Position numbers and translations under genes: made by a program. 41,097 nt of DNA. Origin: Bacteroidota bacterium (GTDB lineage Bacteria > Bacteroidota > Ignavibacteria > Tepidaquicellales > Tepidaquicellaceae). How positions within the stretch are numbered: position 1 is the stretch's first letter; every line of letters begins with the position of its first letter. Of this stretch, positions 1-16,910 are shown piece after piece. The notes beneath the pieces are model-generated. The model saw only the letters and a list, made by a program, of their open reading frames with translations, made no database searches and had not been told where the DNA came from. The DNA is taken from contig JAFDZQ010000004.1 of NCBI GenBank assembly GCA_018266895.1, positions 32,131 to 73,227 of the forward strand, given 5' to 3'.

Positions 1-410
1 CCGGATCTTGCGCAGGTATTATCGGGAATTTCCGCCCATGGTTTTCTTTTTTTGTAAGACAAAGAAACATAGTTAACTATCTGAACCAGTCCGTTCAGTT
101 TACCGCGGATTGTTCCGGAAATTCCGGGTTCGAAATGACATTCTACGCAGTCTACTTTGTTGTGAGCTGAAGTCCTCCAGCTTTGATAAAAGGTTTCCAT
201 GTAATGGCAGGTAGGACAGAAACTCGGTCTTGAAGTATATTCTGCTGATACGGACAATAGCAGAAGTAAACCGAAGATTGTAAGACCGGACATTAACAAA
301 AATCTTTTGAATCCCCTTACGCTTTTAAAAAACCGTTTTGGTTTTAATGGTTTTTGGTCTTTAGGAATATCCTGAGGGTTTAAATCAGGCTCTTTGATTT
401 CATTGCTCAT
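1..410 (-). CDS. NapC/NirT-type membrane-anchored multiheme cytochrome c (partial, runs off left edge)
   Basis: The reading frame starts at the ATG at 410 and stays open to base 1, so about 136 N-terminal residues are present and the C-terminus is missing. After a basic, proline-rich cytoplasmic tail there is one hydrophobic segment at about residues 38-55. It is followed at once by CPTCH and then CVECH heme c motifs. One membrane anchor followed by closely spaced hemes is the plan of the NapC/NirT/NrfH quinol dehydrogenases, which pass electrons from menaquinol to periplasmic cytochromes. The gene is last in the visible multiheme operon, 69 bases after the NrfD-type gene. A quinol-to-cytochrome role is inferred. 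The heme count is unknown because the gene is cut. Confidence 0.8.
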   Translation of the reverse strand, partial: MSNEIKEPDLNPQDIPKDQKPLKPKRFFKSVRGFKRFLLMSGLTIFGLLLLLSVSAEYTSRPSFCPTCHYMETFYQSWRTSAHNKVDCVECHFEPGISGTIRGKLNGLVQIVNYVSLSYKKRKPWAEIPDNTCARS

Positions 411-479: not shown

Positions 480-1643
480 TCATTTAACTTCACCTGGTTT
501 TTCAAAAAACGGAAATACAATATCAAACAACTTTAACAATATAAATGGAATAAGTATGATACCGAAAGAAACTAATAAACCTTCTTTATCAAAATATCCC
601 GGAAAATATTCCGTAAACCCGCGCATACTTTTTGAAACAAGCTGACCGCCGATAACTACATTCCATCTCATAAGTAAAACCTGTATAAGCAGCATTCCTG
701 AAGCTATCCAGATCATGAAATTTTTTGTTTTTAAGGGTAGTGACTTTACTAAAGTGGTAACTGATAGAATCAGAAACGGTATTATGGAAAAAACAAGGAT
801 CTGAAGGTAAATATATGAAATCTTAAGTTTACCGTTTATTAAATGCTTCAGTACTTCCCATCTTTCAGTGTTTTCGTATGATATTGATAAAACTTCCATT
901 AATTCAAGTACAACCGCAATTATCATAAATCCCCATAGCCATTTTGACATTAACTCATAACTATCCTGATTGACAGGTTTTTTCCTTAACCAGTGAACAA
1001 ATTGATAAAGAAATATCAATACAGCAAGTCCGGAAACTATTGCAGAAAAAATGAAAATAATAAACATTAATGGAGTTGACCACCACAGATTAGCTTTTAT
1101 TGAACCAAATAAAAACCCGACATACCCATGCAGTACGCAGGCTACCGGAATTCCAAAGGCTGCTAAAAAGGTCACTATTTTCCTGTCATACACTTTTGTG
1201 AATTCATTAATTGTTGTATTTCCAAGTATTAATACCCAATAAATCTTTTTAACCATTCCTTTTGAATTTATATATTTATCAATAAGCTCACCTCTGTAAC
1301 TGAACCAGATCTCCAGAACAACAATTATCAGATAAAAAAGATAAACAAACCCAAAACCGCTCATTGCAGAATTAAAATTTGGAGTAACCATAATATTAAA
1401 TGCCCTGTCCGGTCTGCCAAGGTGATTTAATAACGGAACTGTTGCAAAGCAAAGAAATGCTAATGAGGATACAAGTGCAAATTTTGCAATTGGTTTTAAT
1501 TTCTCCATTCCGAAAACATGGTAAAATGAAGAAACTATAAATGCTCCCGCAACCATACCTGTAATATATGGATACAACACTATCATTACGGTCCATGTTG
1601 TATGCAATTCATTTGGAAAAACAAAACTACCAGGTATCTGCAT
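480..1643 (-). CDS. NrfD/PsrC-type polytopic membrane subunit of a quinone-interacting oxidoreductase
   Basis: This is a very hydrophobic protein of about 387 residues with roughly nine or ten predicted membrane segments. The opening, MQIPGSFVFPNELHTTW, followed by a GMVAGAFIVSSFYHVFG-like helix, is typical of the NrfD/PsrC family. Such subunits carry no cofactor but bind (mena)quinone and anchor a four-cluster ferredoxin partner. That partner is encoded directly upstream and ends one base before this start. A start at 1670 is possible but would overlap the upstream gene by 26 bases. I chose the ATG at 1643 because a strong GGAGGT lies just upstream of it, inside the end of the ferredoxin gene. 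The direction of electron flow cannot be read from the sequence. Confidence 0.88.
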   Translation of the reverse strand: MQIPGSFVFPNELHTTWTVMIVLYPYITGMVAGAFIVSSFYHVFGMEKLKPIAKFALVSSLAFLCFATVPLLNHLGRPDRAFNIMVTPNFNSAMSGFGFVYLFYLIIVVLEIWFSYRGELIDKYINSKGMVKKIYWVLILGNTTINEFTKVYDRKIVTFLAAFGIPVACVLHGYVGFLFGSIKANLWWSTPLMFIIFIFSAIVSGLAVLIFLYQFVHWLRKKPVNQDSYELMSKWLWGFMIIAVVLELMEVLSISYENTERWEVLKHLINGKLKISYIYLQILVFSIIPFLILSVTTLVKSLPLKTKNFMIWIASGMLLIQVLLMRWNVVIGGQLVSKSMRGFTEYFPGYFDKEGLLVSFGIILIPFILLKLFDIVFPFFEKPGEVK

Positions 1644-1644
1644 A

Positions 1645-2403
1645 TTATTTGACCTCCATATCCAAACCAATATAATAACATTTTGGGTTTGTTCCCATTT
1701 CCGGTTTCAATGTACCATATCTTCTCAGGTTAAGGATCTTCCTTATCTTGCTTTCAGGATCTTTAAGATTACCAAAAATTCTTGCAGCTCTCGGACATGC
1801 ATTTACACATGCAGGCGCTTCGCCTTTTTGAATCCTGTGATAACACAATGTACATTTGTCTGCTACCCCTTTTTCATGATCAATATACCTGCAGCCGTAT
1901 GGACAGGCCTGGACACAATAACCGCATCCAACACATCTTTCCTTGTCTATCAGTACCACGCCGTCAGGTGAATCATATGTAGCTCCTACAGGGCAAACCT
2001 GGGTACAGGCTGAATCCTTACAATGGTTGCATAATTTCGGAACAAAGAAAGACTTTACAATTTCAGCTTCATTAAAATTATCATCCTTGAAACTATCTAA
2101 AGCACCATTAGGTGAATCAACACGTACTCTGCCATTTTTATCAATTTCATATCTTTCTACCCATGTTCTGTAAAATGTATCAGGTACATTATTTTCAACT
2201 TTACAAGCCCTTACACAGGCACCGCAGCCGATACACCTGGTAGTATCAACAATAAAACCCCAGTCAAATTTGCTTAGATCTTCAGGACTTTTATAATCAA
2301 TTTCTCTGCCGGTTTTTGAAAATGCAAATAAAGAACCCATTACAATTCCGGCGGAAGAATATATTCCTAATTTTAAAAATTTGCGTCTTTCTATTTTATC
2401 CAT
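1645..2403 (-). CDS. NrfC/HybA-like iron-sulfur subunit with four [4Fe-4S] clusters, Tat-type signal
   Basis: The protein has 252 residues. The N-terminus has a twin-arginine motif (ERRKFLK) followed by a hydrophobic stretch, so Tat export or anchoring on the outer face of the membrane is likely. Four cysteine groups are visible: C57/60/63/67, C125/128/133/137, C157/160/163/167 and C184/187/199/203. This is the standard set for NrfC/PsrB/HmcB-type electron-wire subunits carrying four [4Fe-4S] clusters. It would connect the NrfD-type membrane subunit encoded next to the multiheme cytochromes of the same operon. An AGGAG lies just upstream of the start. No catalytic molybdopterin subunit is encoded nearby. 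Confidence 0.92.
   Translation of the reverse strand: MDKIERRKFLKLGIYSSAGIVMGSLFAFSKTGREIDYKSPEDLSKFDWGFIVDTTRCIGCGACVRACKVENNVPDTFYRTWVERYEIDKNGRVRVDSPNGALDSFKDDNFNEAEIVKSFFVPKLCNHCKDSACTQVCPVGATYDSPDGVVLIDKERCVGCGYCVQACPYGCRYIDHEKGVADKCTLCYHRIQKGEAPACVNACPRAARIFGNLKDPESKIRKILNLRRYGTLKPEMGTNPKCYYIGLDMEVK
1652..1657 (-). promoter_or_regulatory. Strong Shine-Dalgarno deciding the NrfD-type start
   Basis: On the minus strand GGAGGT lies eight bases before the ATG at 1643 and overlaps the last codons of the ferredoxin gene. It favours 1643 over the in-frame ATG at 1670 and suggests translational coupling of the two subunits. Most genes in this window lack such a good match. Confidence 0.7.
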
Positions 2404-2475: not shown

Positions 2476-3753
2476 TTAATGACATGTTTTGCAAAAATCT
2501 TCTTTGTGGCAATTATTGCACAGTTCTTTACCTTTTTTAGAAATGAGTTCCATATGCGTTTCACCAAAATCTTCTGGATGTGGCATATCCAGTTTATGGC
2601 AGCCGTTACAGGAATTTTTCTTATGACACGTTTCGCATGATGAAGGATTTTTAATTCCTGATACTTTATGAAGATTTTTTCTCCAGTCAGCATTATGAGA
2701 AACGGGTTTGCTCTTCATATGACAGCTATAACAGCTGTTAGATGTATGACATTTATTGCAGATTTCCATATTTTGTTTTGCAATATCCCTATGTTCCGAT
2801 TTCCAGTTAACCGAATGCGGATTCTGTTCTTTTGTCAGGTGCATTTGATGAATCTTATCCTCGTGGCAGTTCAAACATATCTTTTCATCACTTTTTGAAA
2901 TAATCAAACCATTGCCTACATGTTTTGGCCATTCAATTTTCGGCGGATATTTTTCATCTTTAAATGATTTCTTCTCATGACAAAGCAGACAGAATTTTGC
3001 ATTTCCGTTTTTATAAATTCTGCCTGTGGTTTCATTTTCTTTGTGATATAAATGACATGTCCTGCAATCTATGTATTTACTATGCGGTTTACTGTTAAAG
3101 TCAGCAGTAATTTCATCATGGCAATCTTTACATTCAAATATAGTCGGATGATTTGCTACATCTTTGAATTCTTTTTTTTCCGGAGTTTTACTATGACACT
3201 CAGTACATTTATAGACTATCGGATGCAATCTGGAATTTTTTACATCCGTAAGCAAAAATATCGGTTCATGCGGATTATGACATTGAATACATTGTGTTTT
3301 CGGATCACTTACATGAAGGAATTTGAAATGATCTTCTTTCATTATCTGCGGAAAATCTGCAGGTCTGGCTTTTAACTTTTGATGACATAATAAGCAGCCG
3401 TCAAGTTTGAATTCTTTTTCAAGATATGCCTGCTCTTTTGTAATTCCCTTTAAGCTGTCTCCCTTAAAATATGCAACATGAACGTTTCCTGCCCCGTGAC
3501 AATCAACACAAGGTACATTATAATGAGCATCTTTTTCGTGTAAATTATAGATACTTTCATGACATTCCGAGCAGGTTTTACTATTCTGGTTTAAAACGGG
3601 CTGCTTCATTATTTCCTGGTTTGCATCCCATCTGTAATTTCCGGCAAAACCATAGCTGTCAGGCTGCATAGCTTTACGTATTATAAATCCTGCTATTAAC
3701 AGAAAAAACAGTATTGAAAATATTAAAACAATATGCTTAGAATTTTTAAACAT
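2476..3753 (-). CDS. 15-heme cytochrome c, membrane-anchored
   Basis: The protein has 425 residues, one N-terminal hydrophobic anchor or signal (about 8-27) and fifteen CxxCH motifs spread over the rest, starting with CSECH near residue 60. The last motif, CKTCH, is the extreme C-terminus and is followed directly by the stop codon. Many additional histidines could be distal ligands, so bis-His hemes are likely. I recognise no enzyme signature, and the protein resembles large electron-transfer cytochromes such as the HmcA class. It lies 27 bases after the cytochrome b gene and 72 bases before the ferredoxin subunit. Function as a periplasmic electron wire or store is inferred from heme density and neighbours. 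Confidence 0.88.
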   Translation of the reverse strand: MFKNSKHIVLIFSILFFLLIAGFIIRKAMQPDSYGFAGNYRWDANQEIMKQPVLNQNSKTCSECHESIYNLHEKDAHYNVPCVDCHGAGNVHVAYFKGDSLKGITKEQAYLEKEFKLDGCLLCHQKLKARPADFPQIMKEDHFKFLHVSDPKTQCIQCHNPHEPIFLLTDVKNSRLHPIVYKCTECHSKTPEKKEFKDVANHPTIFECKDCHDEITADFNSKPHSKYIDCRTCHLYHKENETTGRIYKNGNAKFCLLCHEKKSFKDEKYPPKIEWPKHVGNGLIISKSDEKICLNCHEDKIHQMHLTKEQNPHSVNWKSEHRDIAKQNMEICNKCHTSNSCYSCHMKSKPVSHNADWRKNLHKVSGIKNPSSCETCHKKNSCNGCHKLDMPHPEDFGETHMELISKKGKELCNNCHKEDFCKTCH

Positions 3754-3780: not shown

Positions 3781-4563
3781 TCACTGCTTATTGATATCCG
3801 GATCTGTTTCAGAAACAGCAATATTTTTAGTTTCTGTTTCATCCTTTGCTTTTTCTGATAAGTTTTCTTTTATATTATCTGTGTTTTGTTTCTCTGAAGT
3901 TTCAAGTTCCAGAGGATGTTCATGCTCCATTTGCTCGCGGGTAAGATAACCCTTTAACCATGCTTTGTTCATCGGATATACATCCGGATTAAGGAATATG
4001 AAATAAAAATGCCAGACAACTATTGCAAGACTTGCAAGAATCGCTTCGTAATAATGTATAGCTGATGAAATATCCATTCCCGTATTTGTTACATATTTCA
4101 GGAAAAAATTTTCAAACCACAATATCACTCCGGTTATTCCCATTATGAATGTTCCCCAGACTACTGCCCAGTATTCCATTTTTTCAATATAACTGAATCT
4201 TCCGAACAATGGTTTTGTATCTGATTTTCCAATCAGGTATTTCATGGAATTCATGAAATCCGTAACATCCTGTCTGTTAGGAAGGAAATCCTTAAACAGC
4301 TGTTTTCCCCTGACAGTGAAAAAAAGATAATAAACATGATATAAAGAAACCATTACAAGCACTACAGAAGCAATTCTGTGTACAATGCCTCTGGCTTCAA
4401 ATGTATTTTGTCCGATAACAGCAGCGATCCCTTTTACCCAGAATGATTCAGGAAATTTTAATGCGAATCCGGTAATTACCAGAACAATAAAACTTGACAG
4501 CAGTAAAAAATGCTGAACTCTTTCATTCGCGGACATTCTCAGATATTTATCTTCAGTCTTCAT
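3781..4563 (-). CDS. Di-heme cytochrome b561-type membrane subunit (formate dehydrogenase gamma / Ni,Fe-hydrogenase b-type)
   Basis: The protein has about 260 residues. It opens with a soluble segment containing NERVQHFLLLSSFIVLVITG, the typical first helix of this family, where the histidine is a heme b ligand. Further helices carry GIVHRIASVV...LYHVYY and AIHYYE...VVWHFYFIF, which supplies the usual four or so ligand histidines. The C-terminus has a long charged tail rich in Glu and Lys. The protein probably exchanges electrons between quinone and the flanking cytochromes. The frame can extend to an ATG at 4605, but that stretch has no ribosome site. The ATG at 4563, overlapping the end of the upstream 19-heme gene by 11 bases, begins a family-like N-terminus. 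Confidence 0.85.
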   Translation of the reverse strand: MKTEDKYLRMSANERVQHFLLLSSFIVLVITGFALKFPESFWVKGIAAVIGQNTFEARGIVHRIASVVLVMVSLYHVYYLFFTVRGKQLFKDFLPNRQDVTDFMNSMKYLIGKSDTKPLFGRFSYIEKMEYWAVVWGTFIMGITGVILWFENFFLKYVTNTGMDISSAIHYYEAILASLAIVVWHFYFIFLNPDVYPMNKAWLKGYLTREQMEHEHPLELETSEKQNTDNIKENLSEKAKDETETKNIAVSETDPDINKQ

Positions 4564-6454
4564 TAACTTTTTTAATTTTTTTCTTTTTCTTCCAGTCGAG
4601 CACATTGTGTAGAACCATAAATCCTATTATTCCGAATATTAAAATCATATATAATCTGGTAACCACAAATACCCACGGTGAATCCTTCTGCGTGTCACTG
4701 ACATGGATCTTTGAAGTAAAAAGAACCTCAGCTGCTCCTTCGTGACACTTGCCGCATGTTTTCGGGAGATTCTTTTTATTTATGGTTGACGATGTGTCGG
4801 AAGAAGGTTTTATACTGTGATTGCCGTGACAGCTTTCACAGTTGGCTACTTCAGCATAACCGCCTCTTGTTGCAAGTCCGTGAAAACTTTCATTATAAGT
4901 TTCGCTGACTTTTGTTGGGAGATCGTTTCTTTCAACTAACTCAACTGAAGAGTGACAGTTTGAACAAAGTTTTATAAGATTCTTCGATTTTGCTAGTTTA
5001 TCGTCTGACTTTTTAGTAACAATGGAATGATTGCCGTGACAGCTGTTGCATGTAGGCGCATCTTTATTATCTTCTGAAATGCCTTTCTGATGAACACTTT
5101 CAAGGTAATCTCTTTTCTGATCCTGATGACAGTTTGACTGACCGCAGGTCTGTGCAACATTTTTCTTGCTTATCTTTGATTCGGGATTATCTGCATTTTC
5201 CATTTCATGAGCTCCGTGACATTCCGAACACGTAGGAGCATCCAGATTACCTTTCTTAAGAGCTTCGTAATGAACGCTGTTACGGTATCCGCTTATAAGT
5301 TCTTCTTCTCCCTGATAATTTTTATGAGGTATCTTTCCGTCTTCATGACACTTAAGACATTTTTCCACAATATTTACCTTTGAGAATTCATCGGACAATA
5401 GAGTAGATTTTATGTCATGTTCACCGTGACAGGTAACACAGGACGGAGCTTTGTCGCTGTTTTTAAGATACTCGGTTCCGTGTTTCGATTTTTTAAATTT
5501 TTCCACGGTTTCCTTATGGCATTTTCCGCATGTCTCCAGCAAACGCGCTTTTGCAGTGGCTGAAGCAGGATTATCCGGAGTTTGAACCATATGATCCCCG
5601 TGGCAGTCAACACAACCGGCTGCTTCGGAATCTCCTTTTCTGAGTAAACCGTGAATGCTTGTCTTGTACTGTGCAACAAATTTCGCTGAACCCTTTTCCT
5701 CACCCGGAAATAATTTTTCGTTCAGGTGACAGTTCAGACATCCTTCGGATTCAATGGAAACTTTGCTTGTAAGTATATCATGTGAACCATGACAATCCGT
5801 ACATACAGGAGCGTTTTTGTTTCCTCCCTGCATAACAGTATGATGAATACTGTTCTTGAAAGCCATTTTGTTTTTATTATGACACTTCCCGCAGACTTCA
5901 TTTACTTCGTTCTTAGAGATCTTTGCCGTCTGATGTCCGCCCTTGTGGCAATCATCGCATCCTACATTCTTCTTTGCATGTATACTTGTGGAAAACTTTC
6001 TTATGTTTTTATTCTTATGACAATTAAGACAGCTTTGTGTCTGATTTTCTCTGATGAGTCTTACCGGCTTTACATCATGCTTTGAATGACATTCGTAACA
6101 GTTTACTTTATTATGAACGCTTTTTTCTATACCCTTAAGATTGTCATGACAGGAATTGCAACCTGCAAGTTCGTTTTTCTTTGAATGAGGAATTTCGTCC
6201 GGATTATAATTCAGGTGACAGTCAACGCATTCAGCTCCGGCATGGACAGAACTTTTATAATGTTCGGGACTGACAAACAGAGAAATCTTTTTACCGTTTT
6301 TTTCCATTGTCAAATCCTTGTCTTCGTGACAGGAAAGACAGGTTTCCGTATCTTTAGAGGAACTTAAAATATTTCTGTCAGCAATTATTAATATCAGACT
6401 GATTAAGAATGATATTGCAAATATTACAACTATATTTCTTCTGAGTGGTATCAA
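4553..6454 (-). CDS. 19-heme membrane-bound cytochrome c with internal repeats
   Basis: The protein has 633 residues. It has an N-terminal membrane segment (about 8-25), a periplasmic heme domain and a C-terminal membrane helix (about 595-618) followed by a lysine-rich cytoplasmic tail. I count eighteen CxxCH motifs plus one CX4CH at residues 437-443 (CGQSNCH). The middle is built of repeats of about 70 residues with the pattern S-V/I-H ... AP-T/S-C-x-x-CHG-x-H ... CGKCH, as in paired-CxxCH cytochromes. The start is TTG, overlapping the upstream stop as TTGA. An in-frame TAA lies three codons further upstream, so no ATG is available. It is probably the main electron conduit of the complex; its redox partners are inferred only from neighbours. 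Confidence 0.88.
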   Translation of the reverse strand: MIPLRRNIVVIFAISFLISLILIIADRNILSSSKDTETCLSCHEDKDLTMEKNGKKISLFVSPEHYKSSVHAGAECVDCHLNYNPDEIPHSKKNELAGCNSCHDNLKGIEKSVHNKVNCYECHSKHDVKPVRLIRENQTQSCLNCHKNKNIRKFSTSIHAKKNVGCDDCHKGGHQTAKISKNEVNEVCGKCHNKNKMAFKNSIHHTVMQGGNKNAPVCTDCHGSHDILTSKVSIESEGCLNCHLNEKLFPGEEKGSAKFVAQYKTSIHGLLRKGDSEAAGCVDCHGDHMVQTPDNPASATAKARLLETCGKCHKETVEKFKKSKHGTEYLKNSDKAPSCVTCHGEHDIKSTLLSDEFSKVNIVEKCLKCHEDGKIPHKNYQGEEELISGYRNSVHYEALKKGNLDAPTCSECHGAHEMENADNPESKISKKNVAQTCGQSNCHQDQKRDYLESVHQKGISEDNKDAPTCNSCHGNHSIVTKKSDDKLAKSKNLIKLCSNCHSSVELVERNDLPTKVSETYNESFHGLATRGGYAEVANCESCHGNHSIKPSSDTSSTINKKNLPKTCGKCHEGAAEVLFTSKIHVSDTQKDSPWVFVVTRLYMILIFGIIGFMVLHNVLDWKKKKKIKKVNED

Positions 6455-6807
6455 CTTTTTTTATTTTTAAATATACTTTCGACTGCTGCTGCAAGCTCGC
6501 TTAATTTCAATGGTTCGGAAATGTTCTTTATTCCATTGCCGTTATTTCCGCCGTCAGATTCAAGAGAAGGCAGACAAATAATAGATGCATTAATAAATAT
6601 TTCTTTGGCTTTTTCTCTGATCATTTTGTTTATACCGGAATCCATTATCAGACATTCTATCATTTCATTTGACTTGCCTGAATCAAAATCATCAGGGTTT
6701 TCACCGCTCGAACATGTGACATTATAACCTGAATTTATCAGTGTTTTTTTTATCAGAGAACAAATCTCAGGCTTTATGCATAAAATGTGAATTCTTCTAT
6801 GTTCCAT
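6451..6807 (-). CDS. Degenerate receiver-like (CheY-fold) protein
   Basis: This is a small protein of 118 residues whose pattern matches a response-regulator receiver domain. It has a beta strand IHILCI, a strand ending in LIMDS with Asp56 where the phosphoacceptor would be, IICLP as the next strand, and ISEPLKLSEL where KPF/L normally follows the fifth strand. The acidic pair after strand 1 is replaced by IKPE and the conserved lysine by Glu, so normal phosphorylation chemistry is doubtful. It has no output domain. It is the first gene after the sigma54-like promoter at 6837-6852 and is translationally coupled to the 19-heme gene. An adaptor or regulatory role for the operon is a guess. Confidence 0.6.
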   Translation of the reverse strand: MEHRRIHILCIKPEICSLIKKTLINSGYNVTCSSGENPDDFDSGKSNEMIECLIMDSGINKMIREKAKEIFINASIICLPSLESDGGNNGNGIKNISEPLKLSELAAAVESIFKNKKS

Positions 6808-6836: not shown

Positions 6837-6852
6837 ATCAATACATATGCCA
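6837..6852 (-). promoter_or_regulatory. Candidate sigma54 promoter of the multiheme operon
   Basis: Reading the minus strand, TGGCATA-TGTA-TTGA matches the sigma54 consensus TGGCACG-N4-TTGC at the -24 box, with GG and the -12 G at the correct 12-base spacing. The -12 C is replaced by A. Predicted transcription would begin near 6826, about 20 bases before the ATG at 6807. The sigma54 activator gene is immediately adjacent and a palindromic site lies 78 bases upstream (centre to -24). Confidence 0.55.
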
Positions 6853-7081: not shown

Positions 7082-8431
7082 TTATTCTAACCCGTAATCA
7101 CGGATTTTTTTATACAGAGTTTTTCTGTCAATCCCCAGGATCTGAGATACTTTAAGTTTGTTCCAGCTGTTTTCTTCAAGGACTTTTGAAATATAATATT
7201 TTTCCATCTGTTTAATGTCGCCGGAAACCATTTCAGTATCAAACGGATTTTCATGACCGGCCATTTCAATAAGAAATTTAAAATTTTTCTTGGACAGAAC
7301 ATCATTTACAGAAGATATAACAGCTCTTTCTATTACATTTTCAAGTTCACGGATATTTCCTTTCCAGTCACTTTTAATGAGTATTTCCATTCCGTTTGCA
7401 TCAATTGACAGATTTCTTCCGAATTTATCTGAAAACTTTTTCAGAAGAAAATTAACAAGCAAAGGTATGTCTTCTTTTCTTTCGTTCAGAGGAGGGAGAT
7501 TTATATTGACAGTTGAGATTCTGAAGTACAGATCCTCCCGGAATTTTTTCTTTGAGATCATTTCACGGAGATTCTGATTTGTAGCGGAAATCAGCCTTAC
7601 ATCAATTTTCTTTACTTTGTCGCTGCCGAGTGGTTTTATTTCCCAGTCTTCAATTACTCTCAGAAGTTTTGACTGAAGAGTATACGGCATATCGGCAATT
7701 TCATCAAGAAGCAGAGTCCCTCCGTCCGCCTGTTCAAACACCCCGAGCTGAGTATCAACAGCTCCCGTAAAAGCTCCTTTTGTATGACCAAAAAGTTCGC
7801 TCTCGAGAAGATTGTCAGGTATGGCGCTGCAGTTTATTGCGATGAAAGGACCGTCCTTTCTGGCGCTGTTGAAATGAATGGCTCTGGAAACAAGCTCTTT
7901 GCCGGTACCGCTTTCTCCTTCAATAAGAACATTCACTTTTGCCTTGGCGACTTTTTCAATAAGTTCAAACACATTCTGCATTTTCCTGCTCTTGCCGATA
8001 ATATTACCGAACGAATAATTTTCTTCTACCTGTGACCGAAGTGAATTTATCTGCTTATTGAGCTTAAAATGCTCAGCTGCTTTACCGACTTTAAAAATAA
8101 ACTCATCCATATTGAAAGGCTTGCTGATATAGTCAAAAGCACCGTTTTTCATTGATTCAACAGCAGAATCAATAGAACCGAAACCCGTAACAAGAATAAA
8201 AAGCACATCTTCAGGTTTGGATTTAAGCAGATCAAGTCCGGTAAGCTCAGGCATCTGCATATCGGAAACAACAATATCAAAATTATTCTTTTGAATAAGT
8301 TCTTTTGCCCTGGTGCTGTTATTTTCTTCCGTGACAATGTAACCATTCTTAGACAGTATTTTTTTCATAAGTTTGGTCGAATTCACTTCATCGTCAACGA
8401 CAAGAATTCTTATGCTTTCATTCATTTTCAA
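7082..8431 (-). CDS. NtrC-family sigma54-dependent response regulator
   Basis: The protein has 449 residues and three domains in order. The receiver (about 6-118) has the acidic pair D13/D14, phosphoacceptor D57 (SDMQMPELTG) and K104. The AAA+ domain (about 140-375) has Walker A GESGTGKE at 172-179, the sigma54-contacting loop GAFTGA at 219-224 and Walker B TLLLDEIAD near 239-247. The C-terminal Fis-type helix-turn-helix (about 405-449) ends in LGIDRKTLYKKIRDYGL. All key residues are present, so it should be an active, phosphorylation-dependent activator of sigma54 RNA polymerase. It sits between two sigma54-like promoters sharing a palindrome, which are its likely targets. The PAS kinase at 9867-11081 is the likely partner. 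Confidence 0.95.
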   Translation of the reverse strand: MKMNESIRILVVDDEVNSTKLMKKILSKNGYIVTEENNSTRAKELIQKNNFDIVVSDMQMPELTGLDLLKSKPEDVLFILVTGFGSIDSAVESMKNGAFDYISKPFNMDEFIFKVGKAAEHFKLNKQINSLRSQVEENYSFGNIIGKSRKMQNVFELIEKVAKAKVNVLIEGESGTGKELVSRAIHFNSARKDGPFIAINCSAIPDNLLESELFGHTKGAFTGAVDTQLGVFEQADGGTLLLDEIADMPYTLQSKLLRVIEDWEIKPLGSDKVKKIDVRLISATNQNLREMISKKKFREDLYFRISTVNINLPPLNERKEDIPLLVNFLLKKFSDKFGRNLSIDANGMEILIKSDWKGNIRELENVIERAVISSVNDVLSKKNFKFLIEMAGHENPFDTEMVSGDIKQMEKYYISKVLEENSWNKLKVSQILGIDRKTLYKKIRDYGLE

Positions 8432-8909: not shown

Positions 8910-8924
8910 TGGCACGATTAATGA
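8910..8924 (+). promoter_or_regulatory. Candidate sigma54 promoter of the T9SS heme-protein gene
   Basis: TGGCACG-ATTA-ATGA has a perfect -24 box and a G at the correct spacing in the -12 box, but ATGA in place of TTGC. The operon promoter at 6837-6852 also has GA instead of GC at -13/-12, so this may be a local preference. Predicted start is near 8936, about 33 bases before the ATG at 8969. Confidence 0.55.
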
Positions 8925-8968
8925 ATTATTGCAAAGTAAAAATATTTTTTTAAATTAATAAACATAAA

Positions 8969-9772
8969 ATGAAAACTCTTAACAGCAAATACATTCTTGT
9001 ATTTCTAATGGTAATTTTCTTCACCGCAAGTTTATATCTTTATGCAGATCCGGACGGCAGAACCGGCAGAACTCTGAAAACTTCTACTTCCGGCTGCGGC
9101 GGTTGTCACGGATCATCTGCAACAACAGGAGTTACTGTAACGGTTAACGGACCTGACTCAGTCAATACCGGTCAAACCGTTCAGTATTCGCTCACAATAA
9201 ACAGATCAACTAAAACAGGCGCAGGTCTTGACATAGCTGTCAGAAGAGGGGCATTAAATCCTGTATCTTCAACAATTCACCTGGCAAGCGGTGAATTAAC
9301 ACACAATGCAAACATTCCGATGTCAAGCGGAACTGCTACGGTGCAGTTTAATTATACAGCTCCGTCAACAGTCGGTACAGATACGATCTGGGCAACCGGA
9401 CTTGCAACTAACAGTAACGGAGGTTCCAGCGGCGATGAGTGGAACTGGGCTCCAAGCAAAAGAGTCATAGTCAAACTTCCAACAGGGATTGAAAATATAT
9501 CGGCTGCATCTGATTTCAGTTTAAGTCAGAATTATCCGAATCCTTTTAACCCTCTAACCAGCATTAAGCTTGTGCTTTCAAAATCTATGGACATAAAAGT
9601 CAGGATTTTTAACAGCACTGGAAATGAAATCGAAGTGCTTCAGGATGGAAAGCTTATTGCCGGTGAACATTTATTCAAATGGGATGCATCAAAATATCCC
9701 AGCGGAGTTTACTATTACAAAACCGAAGGAAATGATTTCAGTACTACAAGAAAAATGATGCTTGTAAAATAA
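8969..9772 (+). CDS. T9SS-sorted secreted protein with one CxxCH heme motif (choice-of-anchor V-like)
   Basis: The protein has 267 residues. A signal peptide (about 1-26) is followed by a short Gly/Thr-rich stretch with a single heme c motif, GCGGCHGS, at C43-H47. A beta-rich domain (about 55-170) follows, with His104 and His112 as possible distal ligands. The C-terminus is a T9SS type A sorting domain starting near residue 183 (DFSLSQNYPNPFNP) and ending MMLVK. The GCxxCHG plus beta-sandwich layout resembles choice-of-anchor V proteins. It should be made in the periplasm, receive heme, and be exported through the outer membrane to the surface. A sigma54-like promoter and activator palindrome precede it, matching those of the multiheme operon. 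Confidence 0.85.
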   Translation: MKTLNSKYILVFLMVIFFTASLYLYADPDGRTGRTLKTSTSGCGGCHGSSATTGVTVTVNGPDSVNTGQTVQYSLTINRSTKTGAGLDIAVRRGALNPVSSTIHLASGELTHNANIPMSSGTATVQFNYTAPSTVGTDTIWATGLATNSNGGSSGDEWNWAPSKRVIVKLPTGIENISAASDFSLSQNYPNPFNPLTSIKLVLSKSMDIKVRIFNSTGNEIEVLQDGKLIAGEHLFKWDASKYPSGVYYYKTEGNDFSTTRKMMLVK

Positions 9773-9792
9773 AAGACGTAATTATTCCAATA

Positions 9793-9828
9793 AAAAAAGC
9801 CCCTGAATATTAATTCACGGGCTTTTTT
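9793..9828. terminator. Bidirectional rho-independent terminator
   Basis: The stem AAAAAAGCCC / GGGCTTTTTT has one C-C mismatch and an inner stem TGAAT/ATTCA around ATTA. A-tracts and T-tracts lie on both sides. It sits between the convergent genes ending at 9772 and 9867 and should stop transcription from both. Confidence 0.85.
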
Positions 9829-9866
9829 CTTTAGATTAAAATTACTTTAGAAACACATATAACTAA

Positions 9867-11081
9867 TTAATCAAACGGTAATGTTAAAATGAAGGTTGTT
9901 CCTTTGCCGGGATTCGATTTTACTTTAATGTCTCCGTTATGTTCTTTCAGAGCTTTTTTGGCAATAGAGAGTCCCAGCCCTGTGCCTTTTCCGTATTCTT
10001 TGGAGGAAAAGAACGGTAAAAAAATTTTTGACTGATTTTCCTTGGATATTCCCTGGCCGTCATCGGATATTTCTATATTAACGACATTATTGTCTGAAGA
10101 TGTTTTTATTCCGATCTCTCCTTTTGAATGAATTGCCTGAACAGCATTTGTAACAATGTTCAATATGCATTCTTCAATCTGAGCATAATCAAATTTTAAC
10201 AGAGGAAGATCTTTCTGAAGGCTTTTTCTTATTTTAATGTCTTTGTTGTCCTTAAGATATTTAATTTTTTTTGAAATTTTATTTATGACTTCGTTAAGAT
10301 CGTTTTCAGTTTTATTTATTTTTACGGGTCTTGAAAAATTCAGAAGATGTCTGATGGATTTGGTTATCCTGGTTGTTTCTTCGAGAATTGTATTCAGCTC
10401 TTCGTATCCTTCGCTTTTTTCATTTTTATTTAAAAGCAGAAAATCCGCATTACCTGAAATAATATTCAGAGGATTGGAAAGACTGTGAGCGATACTCGAT
10501 ACAACTTCTCCGATAAGCGCTAAATTTTCTTTCTCCCTTAATTCTTTTTCCAGCTTTTTTACAAGAGTTATATCCCTGATAATTCCTACTGATCCAATAG
10601 CTTCATTCTTTTCATTATTAACTGCAAACCTTGAGATACTTACATTGATGATCTCTCCGGATTTAGTGATGCGCTCTGTTTCATGATTAGCGAGAAATCC
10701 TTTTATTCTTACTTCATCTATAAGAAATTCCTTTTCGCCTTTTTCCTTTAAATACTGGGGAATCAGAAACGAAAAGTCCCTTCCCATAACCTCTTTTTTT
10801 GTATATCCGAAAATATTTTCCGCTCCCCTGTTCCACAGGAATATATGATATTCATTGTCAAAACCTACTATAGCGTCAATTGAATTAAGAATAATATCCG
10901 AAAAAAACTTTTCATGCGCTGATTTTCCCTCTTTCATCAGCTGAATCATCTGAACCAAAACGGTTTCAGTCGTATCAGCGATACTGTCAAGATCAGCTTC
11001 GGGTATATTATATTTTGTGCGGAGTTCGTTTTTAAGAAATTCTTTTTGTTTTTCGAACTCCGATGTAACCATATTTTCCAT
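9867..11081 (-). CDS. Soluble PAS-domain sensor histidine kinase
   Basis: The protein has 404 residues and no membrane segment. An N-terminal helical region (1-58) leads to a PAS domain (about 60-175: DAIVGFDNEYHIFLWNRGAENIFGYTKKE). The dimerisation/phosphotransfer helix has the variant H-box SSIAHSLSNPLN with H199. The ATPase domain has N-box N312, the G1 box DDGQGIS (340-346) and GKGTGLGLSIAKK. The architecture is NtrB-like and cytosolic, so a signal inside the cell is likely. It is convergent with the T9SS heme-protein gene, one gene away from the sigma54 activator, and is its probable kinase partner. The pairing is inferred from proximity only. Confidence 0.9.
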   Translation of the reverse strand: MENMVTSEFEKQKEFLKNELRTKYNIPEADLDSIADTTETVLVQMIQLMKEGKSAHEKFFSDIILNSIDAIVGFDNEYHIFLWNRGAENIFGYTKKEVMGRDFSFLIPQYLKEKGEKEFLIDEVRIKGFLANHETERITKSGEIINVSISRFAVNNEKNEAIGSVGIIRDITLVKKLEKELREKENLALIGEVVSSIAHSLSNPLNIISGNADFLLLNKNEKSEGYEELNTILEETTRITKSIRHLLNFSRPVKINKTENDLNEVINKISKKIKYLKDNKDIKIRKSLQKDLPLLKFDYAQIEECILNIVTNAVQAIHSKGEIGIKTSSDNNVVNIEISDDGQGISKENQSKIFLPFFSSKEYGKGTGLGLSIAKKALKEHNGDIKVKSNPGKGTTFILTLPFD

Positions 11082-11672
11082 ACTGAGATGTTTTTATTTC
11101 AATGCCGTGTATGATTAAATATCAGTAACTACAATTCAAAAATGATATCCGGCAAATTATAATTATATTTTTCTGTTTATATGACTTTAATCAAAATGAA
11201 TTTTGCAGTCACATAAAAATTCACAGAAAACTATAAATTCTTTATCTATAATAGCAAATTAATCTTTTTTAAAAAGTAACGAAATAATTCACATTAATCT
11301 TCCGCATCCTTTGTACACTACAAAACTTACGTGTATATGATTCAGTTAATATCTGTCATTCCCGCGCATGCGGGAATCTATAAAGTAATATACACTAAAT
11401 AGATTCAATTTTTATGAATTTTGTAAACCAAACTATATTTAAGTTTCAAACTGAAAACAATAAGTTTAATATCATCTGAAATATGTTTTTTGCATTATAG
11501 ATTAGATTCCCGCCCGCCTTGCCGCGAGGCAGGCATACGCAGGAATGTCTTAGTTTGAGTAAATTGAAAAAAATTAAATTTGTAGTGTACATAGTTCCGT
11601 ATCAGCAACGATTTAATTAACTTGAATGCTCTTTGGAATAATTTAATATTGAAATCAAAATATATTTAAACA
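11082..11672. other. Intergenic region holding a MITE-like element
   Basis: No gene is visible in these 591 bases. The first 230 are AT-rich and contain only the upstream region of the kinase gene. A 280-bp element with 13-bp terminal inverted repeats occupies 11312-11591. The remaining 81 bases lead into the M15 peptidase gene. Confidence 0.6.
11312..11591. mobile_element. MITE-like element with 13-bp terminal inverted repeats
   Basis: The ends are perfect inverted repeats: TGTACACTACAAA at 11312-11324 and TTTGTAGTGTACA at 11579-11591. The 280 bases contain no open reading frame of note but hold two inwardly mirrored palindromic REP-type motifs. These are ATTCCCGC-GCAT-GCGGGAAT at 11358-11377 and a longer relative at 11506-11546 (ATTCCCGC ... 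GCAGGAAT). Short size, terminal repeats and no transposase suit a miniature inverted-repeat transposable element. I see no convincing target-site duplication at the flanks. Confidence 0.65.
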
Positions 11673-12553: not shown

Positions 12554-13216
12554 TTATTTTATCAGAACCATTTGTTTTATTTGATGAAAGTTACCTGCAA
12601 TTTTATAAAAATAAATACCGCTTACAAAATTAGACCCGTCAAACATTACTTCATAATGTCCGGAATTTTTTAAGTCATTTACTAAAGTTGCTACTTCTTT
12701 TCCTAATACATTAAATATTTTCAAAGTTACATTTGATGAATTTCCAATTTCAAAACTAATTTTTGTAGTTGGATTAAACGGATTCGGATAATTATTTATC
12801 AATTTATTTTGTAACACATTTTTTGAACTGTTTGCTAAATTTTGATTTGTTCGTATTCTGTTTTGAGCACTTGCAAATCGATTTTGCACAATATAATGAC
12901 CATCTACTTCGACTACATATTCTCTTACTTTCCCAGAAGCAGGCGGCGGAATATTTTTAAATAGTAATGTTATGTATCCGGCTGTAACATATGTATAAAG
13001 TGTTGCAGATGTTGAAGTAATATTTTCAATTCCAGCCCAAAAAGATTGATTATTTGTGCTTGCTGCGGAAAAACCCATAGATTTTGGTTTATCAACAGTG
13101 ACTTGTTGACCAGAGTTAAAATATATCGTTTTACTTAATTTGTACTTTTGAGCATGAAAGGTTAAAGTTGGTAATCCACATCCATTACTTTGCCATCCAA
13201 TATTTGGATTTCCCAA
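12554..13216 (-). CDS. C-terminal part of a frameshift-split T9SS-sorted protein
   Basis: The 220-residue frame begins at a TTG and lacks any signal peptide. It has a beta-rich, low-complexity first half and a T9SS sorting domain beginning near NNYPNPFNPTTKISFEI and ending QMVLIK. The gene just upstream (13219-13713) has a signal peptide but no sorting domain. The two frames differ by one base (-1), and together would give a normal secreted protein of about 385 residues. The shift can only lie within a few bases around 13219-13225. One missing T in the run GATTAGATTT would explain it. No functional family is recognised. Confidence 0.6.
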   Translation of the reverse strand: MGNPNIGWQSNGCGLPTLTFHAQKYKLSKTIYFNSGQQVTVDKPKSMGFSAASTNNQSFWAGIENITSTSATLYTYVTAGYITLLFKNIPPPASGKVREYVVEVDGHYIVQNRFASAQNRIRTNQNLANSSKNVLQNKLINNYPNPFNPTTKISFEIGNSSNVTLKIFNVLGKEVATLVNDLKNSGHYEVMFDGSNFVSGIYFYKIAGNFHQIKQMVLIK

Positions 13217-13218
13217 AT

Positions 13219-13713
13219 CTAATCATTATCAAAAGTTACAATTGCTTTTAGATCAGTTTGACATTGACCACTTATAACTCCACCTCCAGATTCTTTATAA
13301 ACTCTGAAGTAGCCATAATTCGTCTCTGTAGAGCTTGATGCATTGTTCCATTCTCTAACTACACATTTTAATTTTGCATTTAAATTCCAACATAATGGGT
13401 GATTAGGATTTACATTTATTGAAAAAGTTGCTATTCCCAGATGATTTTCAAATTGGTAAGTACCTATAGTTGTAGTAATATCATTTTGAATTAAATAAAA
13501 AGTAGCCTCATATCTATCTGTTTCCCATATATAAACATTATACATTTCAACAGATACATTAAAAACAAAAAAATCATTATTAGTTTCAAAAGATGAAGGG
13601 TAACATTGATTTGTTGAAATAGATAATAAACGTGAATTCCACGAATAACAATTATTTGAAAAGATAAATAAGAATACTATAAATAAAATTAGTTTATTTA
13701 TATTGGTTTTCAT
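13219..13713 (-). CDS. N-terminal part of a frameshift-split secreted protein
   Basis: The 164-residue frame has a clear signal peptide (KLILFIVFLFIFSNNCYS) and a beta-rich body with several aromatic residues and cysteines, then ends at TAG at 13221-13219. It lacks the sorting domain that its neighbours have. The downstream frame at 12554-13216 carries one and continues in the -1 phase. I therefore read this as the front half of one broken gene, or one interrupted by a sequencing error. No enzyme motif is visible. It follows the outer-membrane-like gene at 13733 after 19 bases. Confidence 0.6.
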   Translation of the reverse strand: MKTNINKLILFIVFLFIFSNNCYSWNSRLLSISTNQCYPSSFETNNDFFVFNVSVEMYNVYIWETDRYEATFYLIQNDITTTIGTYQFENHLGIATFSINVNPNHPLCWNLNAKLKCVVREWNNASSSTETNYGYFRVYKESGGGVISGQCQTDLKAIVTFDND

Positions 13714-13732
13714 AATTTTGTATTTAAAGTTT

Positions 13733-14359
13733 TTAAATTTTTAAATTTAAACCTAAGGTTAAATTTAATTGATTGGATTCGAAATATTTAAAATCTTTGT
13801 TTCTGTTTGTGAAACTAAAAGTAATGTCAATTAATAAAATGTCAGTTATTTTATAAAATTTCCCAACTGACAAACTAAGATAAATTTTATAATCATTGTC
13901 ATCTGGTCGAAGTTCTCCCAATTTTAACCCTACTATAAAAGTGTTATGGAAATGATATTTATAATACAATGCAACCCATGTCAAATTAGTATATTTATAA
14001 CCAGATGAATAAAAGTAAGTGGTATCGTATTTTATAATTTGAGATGAGGTTATAAAATTATCTGGTGATGTAAATGAGTTTTTCCCAATACTTAGTTCTA
14101 TTTCATTGTGATTTGAAATAAAATATCCTATTTCAAAATTAGTTATGTCCAAATTAAAACTGGAAGCTACGGGGACAAGTGTTTTTCCTTCTCCATATAT
14201 ATTTTTATCTAAATTAAATGTAACTCCTTCACTTAAGGATATTCTAAATCCAGAGTTAATGGGGTTTTTAGATTGGGAGTAAATAATAGTTGCATTCAAA
14301 AAAAGTAAAACTAATAGAATTAATTTATTAATCTTCGGAATGGATTTTATCTTTTTCAT
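13733..14359 (-). CDS. Small outer-membrane beta-barrel-like protein, unknown function
   Basis: The protein has 208 residues with a signal peptide (INKLILLVLLFLNATIIYSQ). The body alternates polar and hydrophobic residues in strands such as FEIGYFISNHNEIELSIG, LTWVALYYKYHF and NQLNLTLGLNLKI. It ends in a hydrophobic/aromatic pattern, as small outer-membrane barrels do. I recognise no specific family. It is the first of an apparent two-gene unit with the frameshifted T9SS gene. The unit sits between the complete M15 gene and a broken copy of the beta-propeller gene's 5' end, so it may have been inserted here. Confidence 0.6.
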   Translation of the reverse strand: MKKIKSIPKINKLILLVLLFLNATIIYSQSKNPINSGFRISLSEGVTFNLDKNIYGEGKTLVPVASSFNLDITNFEIGYFISNHNEIELSIGKNSFTSPDNFITSSQIIKYDTTYFYSSGYKYTNLTWVALYYKYHFHNTFIVGLKLGELRPDDNDYKIYLSLSVGKFYKITDILLIDITFSFTNRNKDFKYFESNQLNLTLGLNLKI

Positions 14360-14566
14360 TTTGAATAGTTTTTTATAATGGATTTTAGTTTTGTCAAAAT
14401 TATTGATTCCGGGATTAGAATAATATTTACAAATGAGATGCTTCTAATCCCGTTAATTTATTGGTTTGGTATCCGTATTTTATAATCTCCTTTTATGTAT
14501 TAATTAAAGTTTCTTATTGTTAGTGACGCTCGGCTCGTTTCACTCGCTAAACACCGGCAAGTGCTT
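14360..14566. other. Intergenic stretch with an 11-bp-arm inverted repeat
   Basis: This stretch contains no gene. A perfect inverted repeat CGGGATTAGAA / TTCTAATCCCG (14409-14451, 21-base loop) lies in the presumed leader of the minus-strand unit starting at 14359. A short GC-rich patch follows (about 14524-14562, CGCTCGGCTCGTTTCACTCG), ending where similarity to the beta-propeller gene's 5' end begins. That patch may mark an insertion junction. Confidence 0.5.
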
Positions 14567-14745
14567 CAATATTCTGATATTAACAATGCTAAAATTGTAT
14601 TAAAAAAGTTTTAACAGGAGGTGACTTTTCATAATTAATTCTCCTTAGACTATATAATTTTTTGACTGATAAATATCTATATTTGCAATTTAAAGTTTAA
14701 GTCTAATTGTATACTATTTATTTGGCAATGTAATTAGCAGGCAGA
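14567..14745 (-). pseudogene. Broken copy of the 5' end and leader of the beta-propeller T9SS gene
   Basis: These bases align with 16506-16690, which holds the signal-peptide codons, ribosome site and upstream DNA of the complete gene ending at 16574. Shared stretches include TAAAATTG, TTAAAAAAGTTTTAA, ATAATTAATTCTCCTTAGAC and TTGTATACTATTT. The copy keeps the AAGGAG ribosome site and an ATG at 14632 but runs into a stop after ten codons. The rest of the gene is gone and is replaced by the genes at 12554-14359. Confidence 0.75.
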
Positions 14746-14752
14746 AATCTGA

Positions 14753-14859
14753 TTGAGGTCATAGAAGTTTTTGAAAAATACGGATTTATCTGGGGAGGTA
14801 AATGGTATCATTACGACACAATGCATTTTGAGTACAGACCGGAGTTACTGGAAAAATAA
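14753..14859 (+). pseudogene. Truncated duplicate of the M15 peptidase 3' end (copy 2)
   Basis: This copy covers roughly the last 34 codons of the M15 gene (from about 12366 on), nearly base-for-base and still in frame to the same TAA. It is followed by the same terminator hairpin. It lacks the start, signal peptide and first zinc motif, so it cannot encode an active enzyme. Confidence 0.85.
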
Positions 14860-14870
14860 ATTATAACAAA

Positions 14871-14904
14871 AAGAGGCAGCCGTAAAATATTACGGCAACC
14901 TCTT
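14871..14904. terminator. Hairpin terminator (copy 2)
   Basis: Outer stem AAGAGG/CCTCTT and inner stem CCGTAA/TTACGG around a four-base AATA loop. It is a duplicate of the hairpin at 12485-12518 with better inner pairing. The T-run follows on the minus strand, so it should end the beta-propeller gene at 14940. Confidence 0.75.
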
Positions 14905-14939
14905 TTATCAATTATCAGATTGATTCTTTTACATGAATT

Positions 14940-16574
14940 TTATTTTATTAAAAGCATTTTCTTCGATGCCACAAATCCGTTTGATTCCAACTTATAAAAA
15001 TATACTCCGCTTGAAAAATTATTAGCATCAAAAGAAACTTCATAACTTCCCGGCTGAAGTTTTTCATTAACAATATTTGCCACCAAGCTTCCAAGTGCGT
15101 CATAGACGTACAGTTTTGTTTGCGACGGTTCGGAAATTTCAAATCTTATCTTTGTTGACGGATTGAACGGATTCGGATAATTTTGGGACAAGCTGAATTG
15201 TTCAGGCACTTCTGAAGATATTTGTCTTATTCCCACCGACTGTATATATTTCACAGTGCAAAAATCTTCTGAGTTTCCTGTCTGAACACTTGATCCTGTG
15301 ACAAAAATATTTCCTGAACTATCCAAAACAATTGAACATGCTGCGTCATATCCGTTAATTCCCTGCCCGTTATCATATCTTGTCATCCACAACTGTTCAC
15401 CGTTTGAATTGTATTTTATCGTGGTGAAGTCAAGGCTTGTTCCGTTAGCATCCATAATGCCTGTTATATAAACATTGCCTGTACCGTCAACATCAATAGA
15501 AGTTGCATATTCACCCCTGGCTCCTGCAGACGTATATCTTGCAGCCCACTGCTGATCACCTGATAAATTGTATTTGACAGTAACAAAATCGTAACCTGTT
15601 CCGCTGCCGTCACTTCTGCCTGTGACATAAACATTACCTGAACCGTCAGCTTTGATTCCATACGGAAAATCCAGATTATTACCGGTACCGTTGTATCTTG
15701 CAGCCCATTGCTGAACTCCCGCAGAATTGTATTTGACAGTAGCGATATCGTAATTTGTTCCGCTGCCCATACTTCTTCCCGTAATGTAAATATTGTGAGA
15801 CTGATCAAGATCACTAATAACTGTTGTTTCACCATTTGAAACAGCCACAGGCGCATTATATATTGCAGACCATTGTAAAACTCCTGCCGAGTTATATTTT
15901 ACTGTTCCGAAATTCCCGGGAAAACAAACACCTGTTATATAAACATTATTTGAGTCATCCAGAATAAGTGAAGTTGCAAGGTCTTCTCCAAACCCGGGTC
16001 CGTTAAATCTTCTTACCCAGAGTGAATCACCGTTTGAGTTGTATTTTATAGTGGCGTAATCACCGCTGCTTGATCCGCTTCCGCCTGTTACATAAACATT
16101 GCCAAAGTTATCCACGGCTATTGAAGTTGCAACATCGTACGAGGTAAAATAATCATATTTTTTTACCCAGACAGAATCACCGTTTGAGTTGTATTTTATA
16201 GTAACAAAATCCGAATTTATAGCAGTGCTATAGCTGTTGCCCGTAACATAAACATTACCAGAACCATCAACTGCAATTGCACGGGCTTCATCATCTACAT
16301 TACCAGTTCCGTTATATTTTGCCGCCCATTGCAAAACACCGGACGAATTAAACTTTACGGTGGCGAAATCATTAAATGCACCGAGCTGACTTCTGCCTGT
16401 TACATAAATGTTTCCTGAATTATCCAAAACCATAGTACTCGGTATATCAGCGGTATTTCCGGATCCGTTATACCTTGCCACCCATTGTTGTGTTACCTGT
16501 GAAACTGAATATTCTGAAATTAATAACGCTAAAATTGGGATTAAAAAAGTTTTAATAGAAATTGTCTTTTTCAT
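14940..16574 (-). CDS. SBBP-repeat beta-propeller protein with T9SS sorting domain
   Basis: The protein has 544 residues. A signal peptide (about 1-25) is followed by eight repeats of about 50 residues with the pattern YNSxGxxxWxxxYNGxG ... DxSGNVYVTGxS ... DFxTVKYN. These are the SBBP (seven-bladed beta-propeller) repeats common in secreted Ignavibacteria proteins. The C-terminus is a T9SS sorting domain (FSLSQNYPNPFNPSTKIRFEI ... KMLLIK). The strong AAGGAG ribosome site at 16583-16588 supports this start. It is probably surface-exposed or released, with a binding or structural role. No catalytic motif is visible. A broken duplicate of its 5' end lies at 14567-14745. Confidence 0.9.
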   Translation of the reverse strand: MKKTISIKTFLIPILALLISEYSVSQVTQQWVARYNGSGNTADIPSTMVLDNSGNIYVTGRSQLGAFNDFATVKFNSSGVLQWAAKYNGTGNVDDEARAIAVDGSGNVYVTGNSYSTAINSDFVTIKYNSNGDSVWVKKYDYFTSYDVATSIAVDNFGNVYVTGGSGSSSGDYATIKYNSNGDSLWVRRFNGPGFGEDLATSLILDDSNNVYITGVCFPGNFGTVKYNSAGVLQWSAIYNAPVAVSNGETTVISDLDQSHNIYITGRSMGSGTNYDIATVKYNSAGVQQWAARYNGTGNNLDFPYGIKADGSGNVYVTGRSDGSGTGYDFVTVKYNLSGDQQWAARYTSAGARGEYATSIDVDGTGNVYITGIMDANGTSLDFTTIKYNSNGEQLWMTRYDNGQGINGYDAACSIVLDSSGNIFVTGSSVQTGNSEDFCTVKYIQSVGIRQISSEVPEQFSLSQNYPNPFNPSTKIRFEISEPSQTKLYVYDALGSLVANIVNEKLQPGSYEVSFDANNFSSGVYFYKLESNGFVASKKMLLIK

Positions 16575-16721
16575 AATTAATTCTCCTTAGACCATTTTAT
16601 TTTTTTAACTTACAAATATCTATTTTTGCGATTTAAAAGTTAAGTCAAATTGTATACTATTTTTTTGCAATGTAACTTAACAAGCAGAACTGTAGCCCGG
16701 TACGTTGACCTGTTTTAAAAA

Positions 16722-16801
16722 TAATGGTTTATCCGTCGGGGAGAATAGTATCATTACGACACAATGCATTTTGAATACAGACCTGAGTTACTATTGAAAT
16801 G
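16722..16801 (+). pseudogene. Decayed third copy of the M15 peptidase 3' end
   Basis: The stretch GTATCATTACGACACAATGC and the following bases up to GAGTTACT match the M15 gene end (encoding YHYDTMHFEYRPELL). The preceding codons are recognisable but disrupted by small insertions and deletions (TTTATCCGTCGGGGAG against TTTATCTGGGGAG), and the stop context is altered. This is an older or faster-decayed copy than the one at 14753. Confidence 0.75.
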
Positions 16802-16857
16802 AAATTGAAGACTTCAAAAGTTACATTCATTTTTAAATAATTTCCCTGAAAATAAAA

Positions 16858-16887
16858 AGAGAGATTACCGTTTCCGGTAACCTCTCT
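16858..16887 (-). terminator. Rho-independent terminator of the subtilisin gene
   Basis: AGAGAG-A-TTACCG / CGGTAA-C-CTCTCT with a TTTC loop, followed on the minus strand by a T-rich run. It lies 24 bases after the stop of the S8 protease gene. Confidence 0.8.
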
Positions 16888-16910
16888 GCAAAAAAATTAT
16901 TTTACTAAAA

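Follow-up and report, generated by a model that had tools for sequence, protein, structure and literature searches.

A Reeler-type C-x(n)-C-H protein and a nonaheme cytochrome, both with type IX secretion tails, are paired in a predicted sigma-54 regulon of Ignavibacteria

Can a protein addressed to the type IX secretion system (T9SS) carry heme to the cell surface, and could it serve there as the end point of a multiheme chain? This question is raised by an ORF at 8969..9772 (+) of the window, the whole 41,097-nt stretch of an Ignavibacteria genome (GenBank assembly GCA_018266895.1) that we analysed. The initial annotation described its 267-aa product as a c-type heme protein with a signal peptide, a GCGGCHG motif and a T9SS sorting domain, and all three features are present. 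The hydrophobic N-terminus is, by eye, a probable signal peptide (residues 1-25, 8969..9043, +) with likely cleavage after A25, and residues 6-25 form a helix in the structural model. The motif CGGCH (C43-C46-H47, 9095..9109, +) lies within GCGGCHG, and a T9SS type A sorting domain occupies residues 189-264 of 267 (9533..9760, +). Because this C-terminal Por_Secre_tail scores above cut-off in both models (TIGR04183, 35 bits, cut-off 23; Pfam PF18962, 35.6, cut-off 27) and a signal sequence can be seen by eye at the other end, the proposed T9SS address is supported and the protein classes as type A cargo. An inverted repeat followed by a T run 3′ of the gene (9790-9835) resembles, by eye, an intrinsic terminator.

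Between signal peptide and tail lies a Reeler-type beta-sandwich domain (residues 26-172, 9044..9484, +). The protein belongs to the NCBIfam family choice_anch_V (NF041895), which it matches over residues 18-163 (146 residues) with 131.6 bits against a cut-off of 42. Members of this choice-of-anchor V family likewise have an N-terminal Cys/Cys-His motif and variable C-terminal ends, and we see no defining difference from them; the anchor of the window protein is T9SS type A and its spacing is CXXCH. None of the cytochrome c Pfam models matches the protein, and TIGR01904 (GSu_C4xC__C2xCH) reaches only 14 bits at residues 38-57, under its cut-off of 27, so that it is not a member of that family.

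We examined how far the motif is conserved among 117 distinct family ORFs, 115 of which include the N-terminal region, the other two starting inside the domain. The two cysteines and the adjacent histidine occur in all 115 (the motif was located with a C-x(n)-CH pattern, and the histidine count thus relies on this pattern catching every full-length member, as happened). Homologues that keep the cysteines and lose the histidine, a result named beforehand as one that would speak against heme, were not found. Judged from this conservation, the CGGCH motif is not a chance occurrence. The spacing between the cysteines is, by contrast, variable: one residue in 74 of these relatives, two in 27, four in 12, and five and six in one each. 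This differs from the multiheme ORFs (those with at least three CXXCH) of the fetched loci: their 383 CH sites, in 36 ORFs, have a spacing of 2 (366 sites), 3 (6) or 4 (11), and never 1. The three paralogues of the window protein in its own genome read CICH, CVCH and CSCH, and one relative (locus L086, G027:C372:1-3600) carries three tandem paralogues with CNCH, CGGCH and CSSCH. A tree built with the spacer removed, by a quick method on 148 columns and with many unresolved forks, requires about 15 spacing changes; its strongly supported branches alone require at least three changes for spacing 1 and at least four for spacing 2. With neighbouring CXXCH sequences, the window protein sits inside a clade that is otherwise mostly CXCH, and the canonical CXXCH appearance of the window copy is probably secondary.

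Whether the motif carries heme is harder to decide. The invariant cysteines and histidine speak for a site that binds heme or a metal. The variable spacing speaks against ordinary heme c in the family as a whole, whose site is by sequence not a regular one. The designation as a c-type heme protein therefore stands in part: the window protein has CXXCH in an exported protein, a usual mark of c-type cytochromes, but heme-type spacing is not conserved among its relatives, most of which have spacing 1, and the heme is no more than a plausible assignment. In the CXCH relatives, which form the majority, the site may bind some other cofactor, carry a heme held by one bond, or be empty. System I can attach heme to peptides as short as 12 residues that contain CXXCH (PMC3601427). 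Since this short recognition sequence coincides with Ccm genes in the genome, heme on the CGGCH copy of the window is plausible. Three genes there match Cytochrom_C_asm (PF01578), and an extra CcmE and CcmF pair that adjoins the multiheme cluster (L130:8461-11258) is possibly a dedicated heme-attachment set. Three further leads were set aside. Co-occurrence with PF01578 is uninformative as a heme test, as nearly every genome has such genes, 77 of 78 where the family occurs and 80 of 80 where it is absent; a dedicated second CcmF for CXCH is unsupported, with only two PF01578 genes listed in many genomes that have CXCH members; and a mention of CXCH in PMC11218250 is merely the search pattern of a pipeline.

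The strongest alternative is that the site does not bind heme at all. The C-x(1-6)-C-H motif, together with His112 in most copies, would then bind a metal such as copper or zinc, or act as a thiol or disulfide, on a surface Reeler-type domain, and CXXCH in the window copy would be a one-residue coincidence. We regard this as a serious competitor, though one that falls somewhat short of an even chance. It accounts well for the prevalence of spacing 1 and the range up to 6, for the repeated changes on the tree, for sister tandem genes that differ in spacing, and for the absence of spacing 1 from true cytochromes; the domain has no further cysteine in 88 of 115 relatives, so that the pair can usually serve only itself. 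A disulfide alone, however, needs no histidine fixed behind the second cysteine, the spacings 2 and 4 of the deeper family branch are both known in real cytochromes, and the family copies at loci of the window type are tied to cytochrome genes.

Fold comparisons place the middle of the protein convincingly, as far as sequence and model allow, among Reeler-type beta-sandwiches. The assignment is convincing because a structural match and a sequence link agree; the fold alone would be weak. An AlphaFold2 model of residues 26-172 (pLDDT 85.6, pTM 0.82) has the F-spondin Reeler domain 2zot as its best structural match (Z 10.8, rmsd 2.9, 114 residues), with other Ig-like sandwiches below it at Z 9-10, and the full-length model returned generic Ig-like matches only. 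The sequence link runs through a deeper branch of the family, of which 10 of 20 members match Pfam Reeler (PF02014) and whose profile finds the F-spondin Reeler chains 2zou, 2zot and 3coo at E about 1e-6 (2zou, E 6.2e-7); core and deeper-branch profiles align with each other at 98.8% in hhalign. Membership by intermediates and a shared fold is thus what we find, and a direct search of the window protein against PF02014 gave no match up to E 0.1. A PDB sequence search with the core family profile returned nothing useful, and a Reeler search of the window's own genome was empty, with control queries silent as well. Unlike the Reeler proteins, which share its fold and profile link, the window protein has a C-x(n)-C-H motif and a bacterial T9SS tail. 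The CGGCH segment is of low confidence in both AlphaFold2 models, and its placement is unreliable.

That a beta-sandwich can carry heme c close to its N-terminus, attached at a CXXCH there, is known from cytochrome f. Like cytochrome f (PetA), the window protein is predicted to be a secreted beta-sandwich and has its CXXCH some 20 residues into the mature chain. Cytochrome f chains 6rqf_C and 4ogq_C are among the structural matches at Z 9.2, tied with many unrelated Ig-like sandwiches, and hhalign against cytochrome f (a comparison sequence identical to 1ctm) gave probabilities of 0.9 and 2.5%, which are not significant. We cite cytochrome f as a precedent for the window protein and not as a relative.

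The gene lies between two regulatory genes on the opposite strand, a sigma-54 (NtrC-type) response regulator with a GAFTGA loop (7082..8431, -) and a PAS histidine kinase, its probable partner (9867..11081, -). Past the kinase gene, the intergenic DNA has palindromic, repeat-like GC-rich stretches that were noted by eye (11358-11395 and 11500-11550). Next to the regulator, a multiheme operon is headed by a small receiver-like protein (6451..6807, -; by eye, no Pfam match), which is followed by an 18-CXXCH cytochrome with a NapC/NirT-like N-terminus (4553..6454, -), a b-type cytochrome (Ni_hydr_CYTB; 3781..4605, -), a 15-CXXCH cytochrome (2476..3753, -), an NrfC/DsrO-like 4Fe-4S protein (1645..2403, -), an NrfD-like membrane protein (480..1670, -) and, running off the window, the first part of a 17-heme-type cytochrome (3..410, -). 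Beyond the window follow, in order, two proteins with three hemes each, one of 433 aa, one with 14 hemes and one with six, and after them the CcmE and CcmF genes. The order regulator, family member, kinase is repeated in five other loci (L104, L105, L106, L109 and L113), with a nonaheme cytochrome gene inserted in it or, in L104, two other genes.

Porin-cytochrome and MtrC/OmcA-type systems for extracellular electron transfer have been reported in Ignavibacteria (PMC7399161). The present cluster resembles them in its trunk of quinone-side multiheme cytochrome, cytochrome b and NrfD and in its further multiheme cytochromes; it differs in that its surface candidates have T9SS tails, in its predicted sigma-54 two-component regulation, and in that no porin has been assigned. 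The 433-aa protein encoded between cytochrome genes (L130:13909-15207) has no Pfam match and looks by eye like an outer-membrane barrel; it could be the missing porin.

A second protein with a T9SS tail recurs beside the family. In nine loci (L102, L103, L105, L106, L109, L110, L111, L113 and L114), the family gene adjoins a gene for a cytochrome of 713-731 aa that has a T9SS tail, above cut-off wherever it was scanned, and nine CXXCH motifs, or eight in L114. The nonaheme gene lies upstream on the same strand in eight of these loci and is divergent in L102. Counted from coordinates, about 33 of the 59 relatives encode a near full-length homologue of this cytochrome; in 12 its gene is adjacent to a family member, and in one it is about 1.6 kb away; the named loci and these relatives are partly the same genomes, and the counts are not additive. 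In the genome of the window, the orthologue lies elsewhere (C58:54231-56330, L128:8232-10358; 52% identity). The nonaheme family (about 715 aa, with a sigma-54-type promoter) has partial similarity to domains II/IV of MtrC/MtrF.

Among heme proteins that have a T9SS address and a link to the cluster, the nonaheme cytochrome is by its sequence the clearest case, and it is a better candidate than the window protein for the surface end point of the multiheme chain. The window protein could still be a surface mono-heme cytochrome and itself the end point, with His104 or His112 as second ligand, a reading that we consider improbable. It would draw on the canonical CXXCH, the T9SS tail, the shared regulon and the cytochrome f precedent, yet neither candidate ligand is fully conserved. 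His104 (9278..9280, +) is not conserved, with mostly K, Q or R in relatives, and His112 (9302..9304, +) is His in 96 of 115 and otherwise Q, N or Y; neither is therefore an obligatory ligand. The end-point role would better suit the T9SS-tailed nonaheme cytochrome, which shares the regulon. The structural score of cytochrome f is equalled by many unrelated sandwiches, and its profile comparison gives only 0.9-2.5%.

The shared regulon was assessed with a weighted -24/-12 score over the 120 bp before each gene, using hand-set weights that were never tuned (the window's site had been seen beforehand) and also run against shuffles. A sigma-54 -24/-12-like site, TGGCACGATTAATGAA, lies 43 bp before the ATG of the window gene (8910..8925, +), and a second sigma-54-like site, TGGCATATGTATTGAT, precedes the receiver-like gene and with it the multiheme operon (6837..6852, -). 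The score was at least 22 for the receiver-headed operon in all 8 loci and for all 10 nonaheme genes, a level reached by only 1 of 184 background genes. Since orthologous promoters are not mutually independent, counting loci makes the evidence look stronger than it is; the difference from the background genes is nevertheless clear. Family genes without a same-strand upstream nonaheme gene score 27 (L116), 24 (L104), 23.5 (window) and 20 (L102), and the eight copies directly downstream of a nonaheme gene score 17 or less, all eight lacking a sigma-54 site. A pattern scan over the whole window is at chance level; only the position-specific test with its gene background is informative. With a -24/-12 element upstream and an enhancer-binding regulator nearby, the window gene is predicted to be sigma-54 dependent. 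Its co-regulation with the multiheme operon, which had been suspected from the outset, is well supported, because candidate sigma-54 sites precede both and because the gene lies between the sigma-54 regulator and the histidine kinase in several genomes.

The family has four members in the genome of the window and at least one in 47 of 59 relatives; loci fetched by name carry the labels Ignavibacteria, Ignavibacteriae, Chlorobi or Bacteroidetes MAGs. CXXCH or CXCH occurs in five of 47 sampled T9SS-tailed ORFs of the window's genome. These are the window protein and two of its CXCH paralogues, the nonaheme cytochrome and a fifth protein. Three more T9SS-tailed proteins are encoded near the gene (12554-19841), one of 220 aa, an SBBP propeller protein and a subtilase. 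In five loci (L161, L162, L164, L165 and L171), smaller CXXCH family members without a T9SS tail adjoin a gene for a propeller-like protein of about 335 aa, which is Vgb_lyase-like (PF24684) in the four that were scanned (L161, L162, L164 and L171). A last reading makes the window protein an ordinary T9SS surface protein, one of many, that takes no part in redox chemistry and is linked to the cluster only incidentally. It would suit a genome with at least 150 T9SS tails and a family whose members elsewhere adjoin unrelated genes such as Vgb-like propellers. We consider it very unlikely, given that many genomes keep the gene between response regulator and kinase and beside the nonaheme gene, and that sigma-54 sites accompany it.

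Sequence analysis shows the domains and Reeler fold, the sorting tail, the motif, the order of the genes and the promoter type that they share. These are consistent with an accessory protein that T9SS exports, that belongs to an electron-export regulon under sigma-54 control, and that probably has heme on its CGGCH motif. We give this reading about an even chance, and our judgement on heme attachment to the window copy, which we infer, is likewise finely balanced. The protein would be exported by Sec, after which its N-terminal segment would meet System I heme attachment in the periplasm and CGGCH would probably be given one heme c. The C-terminal tail, behind the Reeler-type beta-sandwich, would then route the protein through T9SS to a presumed location on the surface. 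There it may act in electron transfer as an outer partner of the multiheme chain, beside the T9SS-exported nine-heme cytochrome.

A bolder extension is that CXCH is a genuine heme-attachment motif of a large bacterial Reeler-type family, and that T9SS exports such proteins and the nine-heme cytochrome as holo-cytochromes. We hold this tentatively, as a possibility that is rather doubtful at present. The family offers a direct test of heme attachment at CXCH, as close relatives, which in one case are sister tandem genes, differ by one residue between the cysteines. A limited search of the open-access literature found no paper linking T9SS with multiheme cytochromes, which is not proof of novelty.

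What emerges as most useful from this work is that a Reeler-type C-x(n)-C-H protein and a nonaheme cytochrome with a T9SS tail occur as a pair in one predicted sigma-54 regulon, along with a family suited to testing heme attachment at CXCH. If the CXCH and holo-cytochrome reading is true, the surface end of electron transfer in these Ignavibacteria would be delivered by T9SS and not by the usual routes. More broadly, if T9SS carries matured cytochromes over the outer membrane, bacteria related to Bacteroidota would have a route for external redox proteins unlike the porin-cytochrome route.
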